From contig NZ_CP019419.1 in NCBI RefSeq assembly GCF_001975665.1, forward strand, positions 3,455,501 to 3,519,500: a stretch of 64,000 bases of DNA, in the 5' to 3' direction. This DNA comes from Polaribacter reichenbachii. GTDB taxonomy: Bacteria; Bacteroidota; Bacteroidia; Flavobacteriales; Flavobacteriaceae. Of this stretch, positions 2,958 through 12,366 are shown piece by piece (position 1 is the stretch's first letter; the number at the start of each line of letters is the position of its first letter). The notes beneath the pieces were generated by a model, which did no database searches, was not told the origin of the DNA, and was given only the letters and a program-made list of their open reading frames with translations. The translations under genes were made by a program, and so were the position numbers.

Positions 2958-3026
2958 GTCTTGTTCGGAAAAGGGTTCTTTTTTAAAAATTAAGACCCTA
3001 GCTCACCTAAAGAACCCGAACAAGAC
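2958..3026. repeat. Dispersed repeat B, copy 1 (hairpin ends)
   Basis: GTCTTGTTCGG at 2958-2968 is the perfect reverse complement of CCGAACAAGAC at 3016-3026. The same arms, extended to 14 bp, bracket repeats at 11216-11292 and 12110-12186. The internal sequence has diverged from the other two copies and no decamer array follows it. It may be a palindromic non-autonomous element or a transcription-end structure. Confidence 0.65.
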
Positions 3027-3104
3027 TTACCCCCTAAATAAGCCTTAACTTAAACAAAGATAAAAAATTATAAATTATATAAATTCTTTAGCCCTTAGCT
3101 AAAT

Positions 3105-6262: not shown

Positions 6263-6472
6263 ATTCTTTCTTGACAAATGTTGTTTTACTTCTTTTATTG
6301 AAATTGACCACCTCAAATCATCAAATCCCATTTCATCAAGTTGAACTATTAAAGTATTCATCTTTTCATTTATATCAATTACTTGCCAATATAAATCGTG
6401 ATTTGATTGAGATGGTGTTGATTCAAAATAGACTTCATCACCAATATTGATGTCAATTATTTTATACTTCAT
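6260..6472 (-). CDS. Small protein cotranscribed with the restriction-modification gene
   Basis: 70 residues, acidic to neutral (KYKIIDINIGDEVYFEST at the N-terminus). The pattern of a short strand, IGDEVYF, a loop, then VIDINEKMNTLIVQLDE suggests a small beta-barrel of SH3/KOW type; that is inferred from pattern only. Its ATG overlaps the TGA of the large restriction-modification gene by four bases (ATGA), so the two are translationally coupled. That coupling is the main reason to accept it as real. Possible roles include an accessory to, or modulator of, the enzyme. I do not recognise a named family. Confidence 0.6.
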   Translation of the reverse strand: MKYKIIDINIGDEVYFESTPSQSNHDLYWQVIDINEKMNTLIVQLDEMGFDDLRWSISIKEVKQHLSRKN

Positions 6473-9400
6473 TTTTGCAAATATTTAATAATTATTTCTT
6501 CTTTACTTTTTTTGATTCCATCAATTATAGATTGAGCCTTATTGATTTTAGTTTCATATATTTTGAATTCTTTGTTATATGCTTTTTGTGTATTCAAATC
6601 TTCAGGCACAGGTATCTTAATTGCCTTCATTTTTGTTGCATTTATATTTGCTTGATTAATTGATTTAGAAGCTTTTGATTTTGCAATAGTTTGAAAGTTA
6701 TTTGAATTCATTATATAATTGATATATTCAGGATATGCTTTTTTTACATTAACTTTTATTCTTATCAAGTATGAAGCAAAACAATATTCACCTTTTAAAT
6801 TAAATAAACCCGTTTTACCAACGTGTTCAATTGAGTTGGTACGATTAAAAAGTATGTCACCACTTTCTAATTTGTATTTTTTGAATTCTTCTTTAGTAAT
6901 ATCAACGTGTTTCATTTCGCCATTGTCATACATATAGCCGTTAATTATTTCATTCATCCTAAAAATTTTGTAACCAATATCTTTAGTGTTCATTCCTTCG
7001 TTAATGCCATAATCTGTATCAATGCTTATTTGTTCTATTGTTTTTAATGGTAAATCAGAGTTATATATTTTGTGGTACAATTCATTTCTGCTTGTGCTTT
7101 CTTTTTCTATTATCTCTTGTGCTTTTTTGAATTCTAAATCTAATTGATCACATTCTATTACAATTTTACTTTGAATTTTTGGTGATGGTACAGGTATTTT
7201 ATATTGTTTCAAATATTTGTAATGTCTTTCATATTTGGGACTATTTACTCTAATTAAATTTGTGTAATGAAAAACATATTTAGTTAGTAAATCATTTTCA
7301 AATTTCATTAATTGCGTGCCATCAGCTCCTCTTATAAAATCAAAATCAATAAGTTTAAATGTGAATGAATGATCACCAAAAACTATTAATGGAAAATCTG
7401 ATATAGGTTCAGGATTATCAGAATATCCTGAAATCAATTTATAAGATTCTTGAGTAATAACTGGATATTTACCTTTACTTTTTATTTCGTTTTTATCAAT
7501 TTTGGTTTTATTTCCAATGACATCCTTCAATAGATTTTCTATTCTGTCATAAGGATGTTTATCGAATACATACTCTGTGTATAATTTTTCACCAATAAGA
7601 GAAATTGATTTATTAAAGTCTGGTCTTGAAAAATCTAGCATTTTTTCTAATGAGACTTTTGAAAGATGTTCTTCTAATTCAATTGGAATTTCAAAGTTTT
7701 CTCCTTTAAAATTTTGTGAAATCAGATAATTTATTTTCTCCTTATTGTTTTTATCTTTAGGATCATATAAAGGGGTTTCTATGTTGTTTAGATTAAAAAG
7801 ATTACTTAAGACTCTTTTATCTTCTTCTTCTAAAGTAACGTTTCCATCATCATCATCTTTATCTTCCTCTATTAAGTCTTCTAATTTAATTCCACCTAAA
7901 TATTTAATCCCTTCATTTCCTTTTTTTGCACTCCAGTCATACCCCAAAAATTCTTTAATCTTGGAAGTTGTTGTAGGGCTTTTTAAAACTAATACTTTTT
8001 GCGGATTTAAACTTGCTAGAACAAAATAGTATATTTTGTCCTTTTCAGCTTCTACTATGTAAGAGAGAAAACGTTTTTGAATTTCAAGCTCCTGTTCAGC
8101 TAAAAGTGATTCTTTTCTTTTTGGTATAATTCGCTTTACTATTGCTTTAATTTGAACTTGTGTTCTTGCCTTTTTATTAGCCTTTAAAATCCGTTTTATT
8201 TCTATTTCTGTTTTAGCTGACAATCCTCTTATCTTTTTTGAAAAAGATTTTTTTAGATTTATAATATCTGACCATTTATCAAAATCCTTTCTGTATTCAA
8301 TAAAAAGCTCTGTTTCTAAAAGTGAATTATTAGGTTTGTTTAATAATAGCGTTTGATAATCTGCAAACTCTATTTCTTGAAGGTCACAATATTTTATAAT
8401 TAAATGTTCATCTTTAAAAACACCTTCTTTTGTTTTATCACCTTTAAACCAGTCATTAACTCTGTTTTTATAATGTTCAGCAGGTGCTGGGTTCTCATTC
8501 TTTCGTCTGATAAATAAAGTGGCTGTATTAGTACCAGTTTTTCCGAATGTGCCACTACCAAATTCTGCGATAGCTATAATATCGAAGTATTTTAATAATA
8601 TTTCTCTGGCAGATACATAAACATTTGTAGTTTTTGATGTGCTTTTTGCACTTCCTTTGGTAAGATTAGGTAATGGATAAATTATCCCAGCAACACCACC
8701 AGGCTTTAATAGTTGTTTAGCTTTTTCAATGAAAAATGCTTCTATACTATTATTATTGGGATAACTTTTTTCAGAGATTGTATTAGTTAGATTATATTTC
8801 TTTCGATCTATCTCCGAAAGTGTTTCCAAGTAACCCTTCACACTGTAAGGTGGATTGGCAACCAGAACAGAGTATTCATTATCATTTATTTTCGGTAATT
8901 CAGCAAGTGCATCACCATATACAATATTTATATCATCCTGTCCATACATAAAGGATGATACTTTTGCTACTTTTGAAAGTCTGTATTCTTTTTCAATACC
9001 AACAATAGATTCATAATATTTTTCAATTTCAGTTTCTTTATGTTGTTTTACGATAGGCTTTATTTCGTGAGCGTATTCATTTAGGAAATGTCCTGCACCA
9101 CAAGCATAATCAATAACTTTTGGGATATTTTCATTGTCTTTTATTATACTTTCAAGAGGTAAAGATTTAAGAATAAATTTAACAATTGGCATAGGTGTGA
9201 AAAACTGACCTTCTGATTGTTTTACACCTTGATCTAGAAAGCCTTCAAACATATCTCCTAAAAATTGATGTTCTTCATCAGTATCTTTAAGTTTAATGTC
9301 TTGTAGCATTTTTACTATTTTAAGTAAAACACCAGCATTTTGATAAAAAAGTTTTTCATTGTGAACATCAATAAATGCAAAATCATTATTTGTAAAGAAT

Positions 9401-10479
9401 TTCAGTTCTCTAAAATATTTTTTTATTGTTTCCTTTGTTGCATCAGGGTCATTTTTAAAAAAACGGAAAGCTTGATCTATTGCTTCGTTGTCAATATATG
9501 TTACATCTTCACCAAGAAACCTTTTCATTCCTTCTTGATACAACTTTTGTAAACGGTCTTGTAAATCAAAGAAGTTATCATAATTTATTCCTTTCCAGTA
9601 AAATTTTAATTCATCTGGGTTGTTGGTTTCATCAACAATTTTGCAGAGAAATAAGTTTACTAGTTTGTCAAAAGCATTTTCACGTCCAGAAACATTATGT
9701 TGTCTTAAAATAGTAGCGAATTGATGGTATTTTCCTTGAATATCATTACTACTTATAGTACTTAAATCTTTAATGGAATATTTAGTCTTCCCAATATTAT
9801 AGGCAGGAATATCTTCTTCAAAGATTCCCATTGTAGCGAAGTCTTGAGCGTAAGTTTGCTTCCAAGCAAGAAAGATATCTTCTTTGTTTTTTTGTTTAGC
9901 GTCAAAAAAGGAAAGTAATTCTTTTCCTTCATTTTCTTTCAAATAAGACTCATTGTCTTTAAGAGTAATTAGATTATATCGAGATATTATTTTGTTATCA
10001 ATAAAGCCAGAAGCATACAAGCATAAAAATTGTGTTTCTCTTTTATTTGTTAGATAGCGAAATAATTGATCTCCATCTAGTTCTGTTTTTTTCCAATGTA
10101 GATCAAATTCTTTACCAAAAGTTTTACATTCGATAATCAATAGAACCTTATTATTGTTGTCTTTTACGACTACATCTGCCTTTCCTCCTCCATCTTCCTT
10201 TTTAATTTTTCCGTAACGTTGTTCTAATTCTAAATGGTCTGCTTTATATCCTTTTTTTAATAGATTATGCACACATTCGAATACAACGAAATTTTCAGAA
10301 TGATGAAAATTAGTTGTTGTTTCATCACCTTTTTTAATTTCTTTTGGAAAAATTAATTTTTTATTCTTAAAATCGACTTTAAGGATTGCTCCATTTTCAA
10401 ATTTTTTAGAATATATTTTCTTATTCTGTTTGAATTCCAGTTGTTTTAAAACGGTTTCAAAATTTTTAATATCGATCAT
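6469..10479 (-). CDS. Single-polypeptide restriction-modification-specificity enzyme (type IIG-like)
   Basis: 1336 residues containing all three activities. Residues 60-130 hold a PD-(D/E)xK nuclease (D102, E117-C-K119) resembling the type I HsdR N-terminal domain, with no helicase motifs after it. Residues about 380-700 are an N6-adenine methyltransferase: EGQFFTP at 423-429, SAM motif DYACGAGHF at 457-464, catalytic NPPY at 542-545. The last about 400 residues contain two type-I-like target-recognition modules, each ending in an IPVP strand before a coiled coil (KIPVPSPKIQSKIV and KIPVPEDLNTQKAY). It should methylate adenine and cut near a bipartite site. It lies between an XRE controller and a 70-aa gene, both with 4-bp overlaps. 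Confidence 0.9.
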   Translation of the reverse strand: MIDIKNFETVLKQLEFKQNKKIYSKKFENGAILKVDFKNKKLIFPKEIKKGDETTTNFHHSENFVVFECVHNLLKKGYKADHLELEQRYGKIKKEDGGGKADVVVKDNNNKVLLIIECKTFGKEFDLHWKKTELDGDQLFRYLTNKRETQFLCLYASGFIDNKIISRYNLITLKDNESYLKENEGKELLSFFDAKQKNKEDIFLAWKQTYAQDFATMGIFEEDIPAYNIGKTKYSIKDLSTISSNDIQGKYHQFATILRQHNVSGRENAFDKLVNLFLCKIVDETNNPDELKFYWKGINYDNFFDLQDRLQKLYQEGMKRFLGEDVTYIDNEAIDQAFRFFKNDPDATKETIKKYFRELKFFTNNDFAFIDVHNEKLFYQNAGVLLKIVKMLQDIKLKDTDEEHQFLGDMFEGFLDQGVKQSEGQFFTPMPIVKFILKSLPLESIIKDNENIPKVIDYACGAGHFLNEYAHEIKPIVKQHKETEIEKYYESIVGIEKEYRLSKVAKVSSFMYGQDDINIVYGDALAELPKINDNEYSVLVANPPYSVKGYLETLSEIDRKKYNLTNTISEKSYPNNNSIEAFFIEKAKQLLKPGGVAGIIYPLPNLTKGSAKSTSKTTNVYVSAREILLKYFDIIAIAEFGSGTFGKTGTNTATLFIRRKNENPAPAEHYKNRVNDWFKGDKTKEGVFKDEHLIIKYCDLQEIEFADYQTLLLNKPNNSLLETELFIEYRKDFDKWSDIINLKKSFSKKIRGLSAKTEIEIKRILKANKKARTQVQIKAIVKRIIPKRKESLLAEQELEIQKRFLSYIVEAEKDKIYYFVLASLNPQKVLVLKSPTTTSKIKEFLGYDWSAKKGNEGIKYLGGIKLEDLIEEDKDDDDGNVTLEEEDKRVLSNLFNLNNIETPLYDPKDKNNKEKINYLISQNFKGENFEIPIELEEHLSKVSLEKMLDFSRPDFNKSISLIGEKLYTEYVFDKHPYDRIENLLKDVIGNKTKIDKNEIKSKGKYPVITQESYKLISGYSDNPEPISDFPLIVFGDHSFTFKLIDFDFIRGADGTQLMKFENDLLTKYVFHYTNLIRVNSPKYERHYKYLKQYKIPVPSPKIQSKIVIECDQLDLEFKKAQEIIEKESTSRNELYHKIYNSDLPLKTIEQISIDTDYGINEGMNTKDIGYKIFRMNEIINGYMYDNGEMKHVDITKEEFKKYKLESGDILFNRTNSIEHVGKTGLFNLKGEYCFASYLIRIKVNVKKAYPEYINYIMNSNNFQTIAKSKASKSINQANINATKMKAIKIPVPEDLNTQKAYNKEFKIYETKINKAQSIIDGIKKSKEEIIIKYLQK

Positions 10480-10682
10480 TTATTAGAATTAGTATTTCTT
10501 TCAATTAGTAAATCCTTGACTTCTACATTTAGAATTTCTGCAATCTTATATAAGTCTTCTAAACTCGGTTGTCTTTTATTTTGAGCATAAGAGTGTACCA
10601 TATTGTAACTCTTTCCCAACTTTTCAGCCAACCAGATTTGTTTAATTCCTTTCAGTTCTAAAACCTCTTTTATTCGGTTCAT
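10476..10682 (-). CDS. XRE/Cro-type HTH regulator, probable controller protein
   Basis: 68 residues, almost entirely one helix-turn-helix of the Cro/C1 type (IKQIWLAEKLGKSYNMVHSYAQNKRQPSLEDLYKIAEIL). Size and position match the controller (C) proteins of restriction-modification operons, which delay nuclease expression after entry into a new host. The stop overlaps the ATG of the restriction-modification gene by four bases, so one mRNA encodes both. No C-box palindrome was obvious upstream. A role as a plain autorepressor is equally possible. Confidence 0.8.
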   Translation of the reverse strand: MNRIKEVLELKGIKQIWLAEKLGKSYNMVHSYAQNKRQPSLEDLYKIAEILNVEVKDLLIERNTNSNK

Positions 10683-10759: not shown

Positions 10760-10870
10760 ATTCCGTAAGAGTGAGAAGTGGGAAAAGGCAAGCTCTTTTT
10801 ATTTTTTGAGGCACGAAAAAAATGAAATGTGCTTGACTGCGCGTTGGCTTTTCAGAGCTTGTGGCTAACT
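10760..10870. repeat. Right direct repeat flanking the restriction-modification cassette
   Basis: Partner of 6157-6262: the same blocks occur in the same order, with identical 30-bp spacing between ATTCCGTAA and AAGCTC. It lies 78 bp upstream of the XRE start. The rest of the gap 10683-11166 shows no gene; it is AT-rich with long T runs around 10960. Confidence 0.6.
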
Positions 10871-11166
10871 AGTTCATAAACACAACTTATATAAGTTTAT
10901 CCCTCTTTTTTAGTGGAATATACCTATACTATTTAATTTATTATTTGTGTTTAGACCTGTTTTTTTTTTGATAAATATAAACTTTAGTTTTTTAATGTCA
11001 AACTTAACAGGCTAGTTTTTATTAATAAGTAAAAATTATCCTATACTTCCCTAGTTTGTTTTTTAAGGCATAATTAGTTGTAATTACAGGCTTTTTTAGT
11101 GTTTAGTTTGGTTTTATAGTTAAGTTACCTTGTAAATTTCATTTAAAAATCAAGCAAATAGCATAA

Positions 11167-11306
11167 AAACACCACAAAAAAACCACCTTTCTATAGGTTT
11201 TGCTCCAGTTTGCTTCGAGTCTTGTTCGGAAAAGCATCTATTTTTAAAAAATACACCCAACCCTCACCCGAAGGAAACCCGAACAAGACTCGAACAAAAC
11301 CCCCTA
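11167..11306. repeat. Dispersed repeat B, copy 2
   Basis: Nearly identical to 12063-12201 over about 135 bp, from the CTTTCTATA-GGTTTTGCTCC block through CAAAACCCCCTA. Perfect 14-bp inverted arms, CGAGTCTTGTTCGG at 11216-11229 and CCGAACAAGACTCG at 11279-11292, bracket a 49-bp centre. It is followed 14 bp later by the 19-unit decamer array. Copy 3 is likewise followed by decamers, so hairpin plus array looks like one composite unit. Confidence 0.8.
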
Positions 11307-11320
11307 AAATCAAGAAAATA

Positions 11321-11510
11321 GGGTCATTGAGGGTCAGTTGGGGTCAGTTGGGGTCAGTTAGGGTCAGTTGGGGTCAGTTAGGGTCAATTAGAGTCAGTTA
11401 GGGTCAGTTAGGGTCAATTAGGGTCAATTAGGGTCAGTTGGGGTCAGATAGGGTCAAATAGGGTCAATTAGGGTCAATTGAGGTCAAATAGGGTCAATTG
11501 GGGTCATGTG
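11321..11510. repeat. Tandem decamer array, 19 x 10 bp (GGGTCANNNN)
   Basis: Exactly 19 consecutive 10-bp units with no indel. The first six bases are GGGTCA in 17 units, GAGTCA in one (11391) and AGGTCA in one (11481). The last four vary (mainly GTTG, GTTA, ATTA, AATA, ATTG). The array ends at 11510, one base before the -33 TTG of a promoter for the DUF6266 gene. A 10-bp period keeps every GGGTCA on nearly the same helical face. This could be a protein-binding array or a slippage-prone minisatellite. Confidence 0.9.
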
Positions 11511-11511
11511 C

Positions 11512-11542
11512 TTGGTTTTTAAAAAATTAGCTTTTAAATTTG
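11512..11542 (+). promoter_or_regulatory. Bacteroidota-type promoter of the DUF6266 gene
   Basis: TTG at 11512-11514, a 20-bp spacer, then TAAATTTG at 11535-11542, a full match to the Bacteroidota -33/-7 consensus (TTTG or TTG, about 19-21 bp, TAnnTTTG). Transcription would start near 11549, about 22 bp before the ATG at 11571. The decamer array abuts the -33 element. Confidence 0.65.
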
Positions 11543-11570
11543 GACATATTAATTTTAAAACCATTCAATT

Positions 11571-11861
11571 ATGGTAACATTCGAAAAAGGAATCCTTGGT
11601 GGATTTTCTGGAAAAGTAGGTAACGTAGTAGGCTCTCGATGGAGAGGTAAAAACATCATGCGTAGTTTACCCCAACGTGGTAAATACACTCCAACTACAA
11701 AACAAGAGGAACAACGTTTAAAGTTTAAAACCCTAATCTCGTTCTTGAGCCCTATTGTAGATATCCTAAGTCAGTATTTTGGGAGTCCGCAGGGCGATAA
11801 ATCGAGATCTAACTTGGCTACCTCCTATCATCTTAAAAATTTAGTTTTAAGTTTTGAGTAA
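11571..11861 (+). pseudogene. Truncated DUF6266 family gene
   Basis: 96 residues beginning MVTFEKGILGGFSGKVGNVV and containing GSRWRGKNIMRSLP, YFGSPQGDKSRSNLATSYH. These match the N-terminal half of DUF6266 proteins of Bacteroidota, which are normally about 200 residues (family knowledge from memory, not searched). Homology stops at NLATSYHLKNLVLS. Ten bases after the stop codon the sequence becomes repeat A copy 2, so the 3' half was probably lost at that junction. The family has no known function. The promoter and start are intact, so a short protein could still be made. It is the only gene tied to the decamer array. Confidence 0.75.
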
Positions 11862-11871
11862 TGAATAATAG

Positions 11872-12067
11872 GTTTTCTGACTGAGCAGTAATGATAATAC
11901 TGGATGTTTATTGGGTGAGATTTCTCCGCAAAGTCGAAATGACAGGGTTAAATTAATATTTGCTATTGAATTCATAAACTTTATTACAAAGATTTTTTTC
12001 GAAGCAATCATTTCGTTAGCAATTGGATTAGTAACTCCCAAAAACCGATAAAAAACATAAAAAAACC
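11872..12067. repeat. Dispersed repeat A, copy 2
   Basis: About 195 bp matching 2716-2909 with scattered differences, from GTTTTCTG through CCCAAAAACCGATA. It directly follows the truncated DUF6266 frame and runs into repeat B copy 3. A 94-codon minus-strand frame over it (12131-11847) is an artefact of the repeats. The stretch 11862-12569 holds only repeats. Confidence 0.8.
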
Positions 12068-12201
12068 ACAAATAAAACACCTTTCTATAAGTTTTGCTCC
12101 AGTTTGCTTCGAGTCTTGTTCGGAAAAGCATCTATTTTTAAAAAATACACCCAACCCTCACCCGAAGGAAACCCGAACAAGACTCGAACAAAACCCCCTA
12201 T
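12063..12201. repeat. Dispersed repeat B, copy 3
   Basis: Nearly identical to 11167-11306, with the same perfect 14-bp arms: CGAGTCTTGTTCGG at 12110-12123 and CCGAACAAGACTCG at 12173-12186. It is followed 13 bp later by a short GTGTCA decamer array. A + B lie in the same order and orientation as at 2716-3026. Confidence 0.8.
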
Positions 12202-12214
12202 AATCGCGCTTTTG

Positions 12215-12268
12215 GTGTCAACTAGTGTCAGGTAGTGTCATATGGTGTCAAATAGAGTCATTTGGTGT
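12215..12268. repeat. Short tandem decamer array (GTGTCANNNN)
   Basis: Units begin at 12215, 12225, 12235, 12245, 12255 and a degenerate one at 12265. The first six bases are GTGTCA four times, then GAGTCA and GTGTTA. The period and the TCA core are those of the 11321 array, but the second base is T rather than G. It occupies the same position relative to repeat B. No promoter or ORF follows directly. Confidence 0.75.
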
Positions 12269-12366
12269 TACTATTTTTTTGCTTTTTGTGGAGTAGGTTT
12301 TGGGTTTGATGTATGATATATAGTGCTGATTGTTTGATGTTTAGAATATAGATTATTAGATTATAA

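Follow-up and report, generated by a model that had tools for sequence, protein, structure and literature searches.

The DNA analysed here, a 64,000-nucleotide stretch of the Polaribacter reichenbachii genome (contig NZ_CP019419.1, positions 3,455,501 to 3,519,500; hereafter the window), harbours an array of 19 direct repeats of 10 base pairs (bp) immediately upstream of a promoter and a truncated gene of the DUF6266 family. Comparison with DUF6266 loci across Bacteroidota suggests that such an array is probably a long operator for a small BldC/Xis-like winged helix-turn-helix (wHTH) protein of the HTH_17 family, which would set transcription of DUF6266 via RNA polymerase. The locus in the window comprises, in 5' to 3' order:

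11196..11306, no strand assigned: upstream block of 11-bp CGAAC-type repeats in inverted orientation with an AT-rich centre, read from the sequence
11321..11510, plus strand: array of 19 decamers with core GGGTCA, putative HTH_17 operator (lag-10 identity 0.856)
11512..11542, plus strand: promoter with TTG at 11512-11514, a 20-bp spacer and TAAATTTG at 11535-11542, a layout that recurs in 35 other loci
11571..11861, plus strand: truncated DUF6266 open reading frame (ORF) of 96 amino acids, ATG at 11571, matching PF19781

The array spans 190 bp in exact 10-bp steps without any insertion or deletion, and a single base separates its end (11510) from the -33 TTG (11512), the last core lying 5 bp from the TTG; unit count, steps, junction and spacer all agree with the initial annotation of this DNA. 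That annotation had also counted nineteen GGGTCA sites, of which the TCA is present in all 19 units but the exact hexamer in only 17, the remaining two being GAGTCA and AGGTCA. Over 100 positions the best lag identity of the array was 0.90, whereas 1000 first-order Markov simulations of positions 10900-11600 gave at most 0.55, and Tandem Repeats Finder scored the array at 175-236. The flavobacterial sigma-A -7 box is given as TAnnTTTG in the accessible part of a published report (PMC9723704). The ORF behind the promoter, earlier taken for a DUF6266 gene, does match PF19781 well above the cut-off (48.5 versus 23.4 bits), but the match covers only profile positions 2-82 of 198, and we consider this copy truncated because intact DUF6266 homologues of its subfamily measure 213 amino acids. 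Given this truncation and the absence of a DUF6266-linked type of HTH gene (see below) near the window array, array and ORF probably form a dispersed, partly decayed copy.

Genome scans located DUF6266 in 16 of 58 genomes at genus level, in 65 of 299 at family level and in 29 of 392 at phylum level; a scan of named genomes yielded 30 loci. The family scan listed 96 places, 65 of which were fetched besides the four of this genome, and the phylum scan listed 60, of which 35 were fetched. From the analyses of periodicity, HTH linkage, covariation and phase we dropped L139 and L141 (same sequences as L095 and L093), L099 and all loci with less than 240 bp upstream. Calling a region periodic at z >= 4.5 for any period between 5 and 25, we found 72 of 132 DUF6266 upstream regions to be periodic, every one at 9-11 or 20-22 bp (37 at 10, 19 at 11, eight at 20, five at 22, two at 21 and one at 9 bp), so that the check proposed in the initial annotation, a search for arrays at other DUF6266 genes, returned many; among 286 control upstream regions of other ORFs at the same loci 26 were periodic, nine of them at 9-11 or 20-22 bp. 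The units differ widely between loci (GTGTCA, GGTCA, GGACA, GCAA and others), and we therefore take the turn of the DNA, and not the unit sequence, to be the conserved feature of the arrays. In the MATFEKGILGGFSGKVG subfamily the order block, decamer array, promoter, DUF6266 is common, with L068 and L083 (none) and L065, L073, L075 and L078 (weak) as exceptions. No array was apparent by eye upstream of the MGKISQ-type DUF6266 subfamily, whose lag-10 identity was 0.28-0.39 (12 of 13 loci of the genus). No tblastn match to phages or plasmids was obtained, so that an origin from either was rejected; five stretches of viral contigs fit a pattern, none of which was confirmed as a relative.

The diversity of the units also bears on whether the element acts through nucleic-acid structure, as a G-quadruplex, a hairpin or a structured RNA. 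The GGG runs every 10 bp in the window and a 16-bp perfect inverted repeat within the block (11214-11229 / 11279-11294) would speak for it, yet most relatives carry GTGTCA, GACA or GCAA units devoid of G-runs, for which reason the G-quadruplex was rejected, the inverted repeat is by eye imperfect in many loci, and the sole Rfam match (E 0.43) stays below the gathering score, on which ground an RNA element was likewise rejected. We regard a structural mode of action as extremely unlikely.

The arrays are held in register with the promoter. From a sample of 133 loci, 83 without a promoter under a strict rule and 14 without an array at z >= 5 were set aside, leaving 36, of which one lacks a CA. 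In 32 of the 35 countable loci the CA of the unit occupies one phase relative to the -33 TTG; two further loci are off by one base and have a 19-bp spacer, so that the phase relative to the -7 box is kept, and L148 is the exception.

A partner of DUF6266 emerged from clustering the neighbours at 43 loci: a small HTH protein is encoded at 36 of them, while the next clusters reach five. A profile search located it behind DUF6266 on the opposite strand, in convergent orientation, at 42 loci (two of them duplicates), at a distance of 76-266 bp in 36 and of 442-1206 bp in six. The protein has about 70-100 amino acids, little more than one wHTH domain, and all 20 members tested gave a Pfam match to HTH_17 (PF12728; E <= 0.01), with scores of 39.5 and 33.2, for example, against a gathering cut-off of 27. 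Alignments between modules ran at their longest from about -320 to +1130 relative to the ATG, and two groups of loci share flanking genes as well, at varying distance. Counting an HTH gene as close when it lies within 1.3 kilobases (kb) downstream or 0.7 kb upstream, we found one at 37 of 45 loci with a 10-bp array versus 15 of 87 others (Fisher p 4e-13, the loci not being independent of each other), and outside the seed set at five of eight versus four of 74 (p 2e-4). Seven of the nine other genomes with an exact threefold GTGTCA pattern have DUF6266, and each of these seven has a clear HTH member, within 0.9 kb of DUF6266 in six and at about 2.5 kb in G188; of the two genomes without DUF6266, G328 gave HTH matches of only 7e-9 or weaker and G193 none. 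The P. reichenbachii genome encodes one clear member, beside the DUF6266 locus L013 and about 50 kb from the window array, which it could bind only in trans; three weaker HTH_17-like matches lie elsewhere in this genome. That the same kind of array also controls the HTH gene itself was rejected, as a survey of 40 sequences upstream of HTH genes showed periodicity in only four (at 19, 22 and 24 bp) and in none at 10 bp; a strong 22-bp tandem repeat lies 5' of the HTH gene at L087. The best PHROGs match of the HTH protein was to an excisionase (E 6.5e-6), and its matches to mad1 (E 1.3e-6) and, weakly, to PDC-S05 were read as a shared HTH domain, so that a role in defence was rejected; DUF6266 had no match in the defence-system and PHROGs searches.

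The operator model is further supported by covariation between array and protein. Forty loci combine a close HTH gene with an array at z >= 5; across them we compared the array motif with the recognition helix (eight residues of the SRSTIYRL type), the rest of the HTH protein and DUF6266. Controlled for DUF6266 and the remainder of the HTH protein, the array motif followed the recognition helix with a partial correlation of 0.55 (p 0.0005, n=40), whereas the corresponding values for the rest of the HTH protein (0.05) and DUF6266 (0.13) were not significant. As partial Mantel tests are optimistic under shared ancestry, a window scan and a thinned set served as internal controls: an eight-residue window sliding along the HTH protein gave the highest value (0.56) exactly where the recognition helix lies, and did so again (0.45) in the thinned set of 19 loci. 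At helix position 3 an Arg is found in all four loci with GACA units, which belong to two genera, versus one of the 36 others (p 5e-5), and position 7 carries an Arg in 36 of 40 loci. The loci without it are L097 and L221 (GCAA units), L148 (CACAA units) and L073 (degenerate array), and the link of GCAA units to position 7 is, taken alone, weak (p 0.04). Positions 3 and 7 align with Lys26 and Arg30 of BldC, named in the accessible text of the structural report as the two residues that contact bases (PMC5859096).

This covariation also speaks to which protein would occupy the array. Direct repeats of TGTCA recall the pho box, and the array could accordingly be bound by a general host regulator, such as an OmpR/PhoB-type response regulator or a nucleoid protein, with the HTH gene a mere neighbour; the 11-bp arrays that have no close HTH_17 gene would fit such a regulator. 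We hold this to be quite unlikely, since binding by such a regulator would not lead the array to change with the neighbouring protein's recognition helix. That DUF6266 itself binds the array and regulates its own gene is very unlikely: the array is linked to DUF6266, and strong conservation marks the first 36 residues of DUF6266 despite their disorder in the model, but given the HTH protein its divergence does not significantly track the array, its best eight-residue window reaches only 0.23 (0.33 in the thinned set), and no DNA-binding fold was recognised, the C-terminal part matching fibronectin type III and the N-terminal part being barely tested. The DUF6266 model as a whole has the conserved low-confidence N-terminus, two helices and a fibronectin-III-like domain, and no paper on the family turned up in the literature searched.

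The fold of the HTH protein points to a known group of binders. Its AlphaFold2 model is a confident wHTH (predicted local distance difference test score 84) with two HTH helices and a wing, in which the second helix comprises residues 42-50 and the covarying stretch residues 41-48. The best match in the PDB was BldC on DNA (profile E 0.012, Foldseek E 0.044), and VIA-align placed 6hn7 first and BldC next, along with Pukovnik Xis, P2 Cox, RdfS and the lambda Xis filament. As far as the accessible parts of the reports go, BldC molecules line up head to tail on direct repeats of 9 bp, of which whiI has two and smeA four, and BldC can either repress or activate (PMC5859096, PMC6428758). Shared with Streptomyces BldC as described there are a small wHTH protein of the same fold class and tandem direct repeats about one DNA turn apart and variable in number; the BldC repeats are 9 bp long, degenerate and present as two or four per site at many targets, whereas the arrays here have exactly 10 bp, segments of 4-20 near-identical units and one linked gene. 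The likeness to RdfS, Pukovnik Xis, P2 Cox and lambda Xis lies in the HTH_17 or similar wHTH fold, and RdfS filaments hold about one protomer per 10 bp according to the accessible portion of that study (PMC11963761). Those four proteins act with an integrase at attachment sites, and a tyrosine-recombinase-like neighbour cluster was present at only three of 43 loci, as read from the sequence of the fetched flanks and with attachment sites not sought. Short rows of direct repeats beside a promoter are also bound cooperatively in ParR/parC and omega-type operators, whose binders are ribbon-helix-helix proteins on plasmids. The arrays differ from these in their wHTH protein, in their chromosomal location and in that, the HTH protein apart, no neighbour recurs at more than five of 43 loci. 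We file the array as a putative variant of the BldC-type direct-repeat operator; no published report of arrays of this kind in Bacteroidota was found in a search that was thin on subscription journals.

In the proposed operator, for which we infer physical binding, filament formation and control of DUF6266 expression, each decamer would most likely hold one HTH protomer, and the protomers, sharing one face of the helix, would form a cooperative head-to-tail row running to the -33 box; there the final protomer would meet RNA polymerase at a fixed phase and set transcription of DUF6266. The initial annotation had suggested cooperative protein binding, a proposal that gains comparative support from the conserved 10-bp period, the promoter-locked phase and the covariation with the recognition helix. 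Slippage in steps of ten would change the length of the filament while leaving its phase unchanged, which makes a tuning of dosage by unit number, as in the switch that the initial annotation put forward as an alternative, plausible as a prediction. Activation, or an on/off switch, is slightly favoured by the position of the array, all of which lies 5' of the core promoter and whose last core is so near the TTG, and activation fits the phase as well; repression is nearly as likely and fits the precedent of BldC at smeA.

The copies in the P. reichenbachii genome illustrate how such arrays may change. The upstream block occurs there as five close copies (94-100% identity) and one weak copy; each of the four DUF6266 copies (two intact, two truncated) is preceded by a close block copy, the fifth being the solo copy at 12065-12274 of the window, without DUF6266, and decamers follow all five. 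Outside the locus described above the window holds two further block copies and a second array:

2958..3027, plus strand: weak, partial sixth block copy (79% identity), without an array
12065..12205, plus strand: second copy of the upstream block, 97% identical by genome comparison
12215..12274, plus strand: second array of four GTGTCA, one GAGTCA and one GTGTTA units, with neither a promoter nor DUF6266 behind it

Units are of the GGGTCA type in the window and at L013, of the GTGTCA type at L015 and the solo copy and of the GGTCC type at L014. A four-unit pattern with at most two mismatches matched 32 times in the genome; these matches are confined to four of the five close block copies, and the reversed control had none. 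The near-identical arrays of the window and L013 share the same kinds of first and last unit but count 19 versus 12 units, indicating that whole decamers were gained or lost. About 280 bp 5' of the block are nearly identical between the window (10861-11160) and L013 (about 1795-2075), as if a larger piece had been duplicated, and a shared intergenic repeat precedes both the weak sixth block copy (2740-2900) and the second copy (11900-12060). Across genomes, copies within one genome mostly start near -300 to -357 and end variously at the array end, in the 5' leader or inside the gene; as exceptions, the shared sequence extends further into the flanks in two pairs, and the alignments of G174:C1 and G328 begin only at about -240 to -250. 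Such differing ends would be compatible with copying or with one-sided decay.

Several observations weigh against a simple form of the operator model. At 15 of 52 loci with a close HTH gene the 10-bp period stays below threshold, and a close HTH_17 gene is absent from eight of the 45 loci whose arrays have a 10-bp period and from 21 of the 26 whose arrays have an 11-bp period. In the covariation scan, values of up to 0.35 were reached over the helix preceding the recognition helix, besides the 0.33 for one DUF6266 window in the thinned set. The exact threefold GTGTCA pattern (35 matches, spread over 15 sites in 10 of the 299 genomes) precedes DUF6266 at six sites and not at nine, eight of which carry the block, the one at G193 being without it; another, G266:C12, carries the block and by eye precedes an oxidoreductase-like ORF. 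Random placement relative to promoters, named in the initial annotation as an argument against its reading, is not seen where DUF6266 follows, where phase and position are fixed, but these nine sites stand apart. Together with the whole-unit differences between paralogous arrays and the differing right ends of the copies, they would suit an array that belongs, satellite-like, to a dispersed repeat: slippage would keep it regular, copying would spread it around the genome, and it would have no regulatory role itself. Such a repeat would have to accommodate the fixed promoter phase, the covariation with the recognition helix and a period retained while the sequence diverges, and we judge it unlikely.

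Some further neighbours deserve mention. Beside the array copy, positions 6469-10479 hold a large gene with Methylase_S and methyltransferase-like matches, of the restriction-modification type, and a small Xre-like ORF is apparent by eye on the minus strand at about 10490-10680; the intact DUF6266/HTH module of L013 also adjoins an apparent type I restriction-modification operon (L277 11951-18355, by eye). MGKISQ-type DUF6266 follows a DUF6943 gene in many loci (L167, L172, L173, L178, L180 and L181), and excisionase-like HTH genes lie further upstream in several, which suggests a mobile element. Among distant DUF6266 genes, L216 has a regular 11-bp array (CTAACTATATG/A) on the 5' side and no HTH_17 gene nearby. 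A small protein with a YPKDIQ-like motif occurs near those at L200, L206 and L230-L232, and at the last three, which have 11-bp arrays, it is encoded about 235 bp upstream; two such proteins tested gave no Pfam match over the cut-off. A protein of 240-260 amino acids (MAKQTG/MARQKG start), DUF6266-like by eye at its N-terminus, is encoded downstream of DUF6266 at seven loci (L200, L224, L226, L227, L230, L231 and L232), a similar ORF lies near a solo array at L250, and the one protein tested had no Pfam match.

Taken further, and tentatively, DUF6266 genes across Bacteroidota may be run by private regulator-operator pairs, in which a long scaffold phased to the DNA turn carries units free to drift provided that the linked wHTH protein's recognition helix tracks them. 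If so, there would be at least two types, one pairing 10-bp arrays with HTH_17 proteins and one in which 11-bp arrays have another binder, and the truncated copies would spread as ready-made promoter cassettes able to land before other genes, as before the oxidoreductase-like ORF in G266. In the accessible accounts two BldC sites have been solved on DNA, with two and four degenerate repeats; the DUF6266 loci would offer about forty naturally occurring combinations of a small wHTH protein with an operator that has 4-20 similar sites, changes of specificity being visible on both sides. The specificity of wHTH proteins, the cooperativity of their filaments and dosage by operator length would thereby become directly testable, and DUF6266 would gain a first functional handle.
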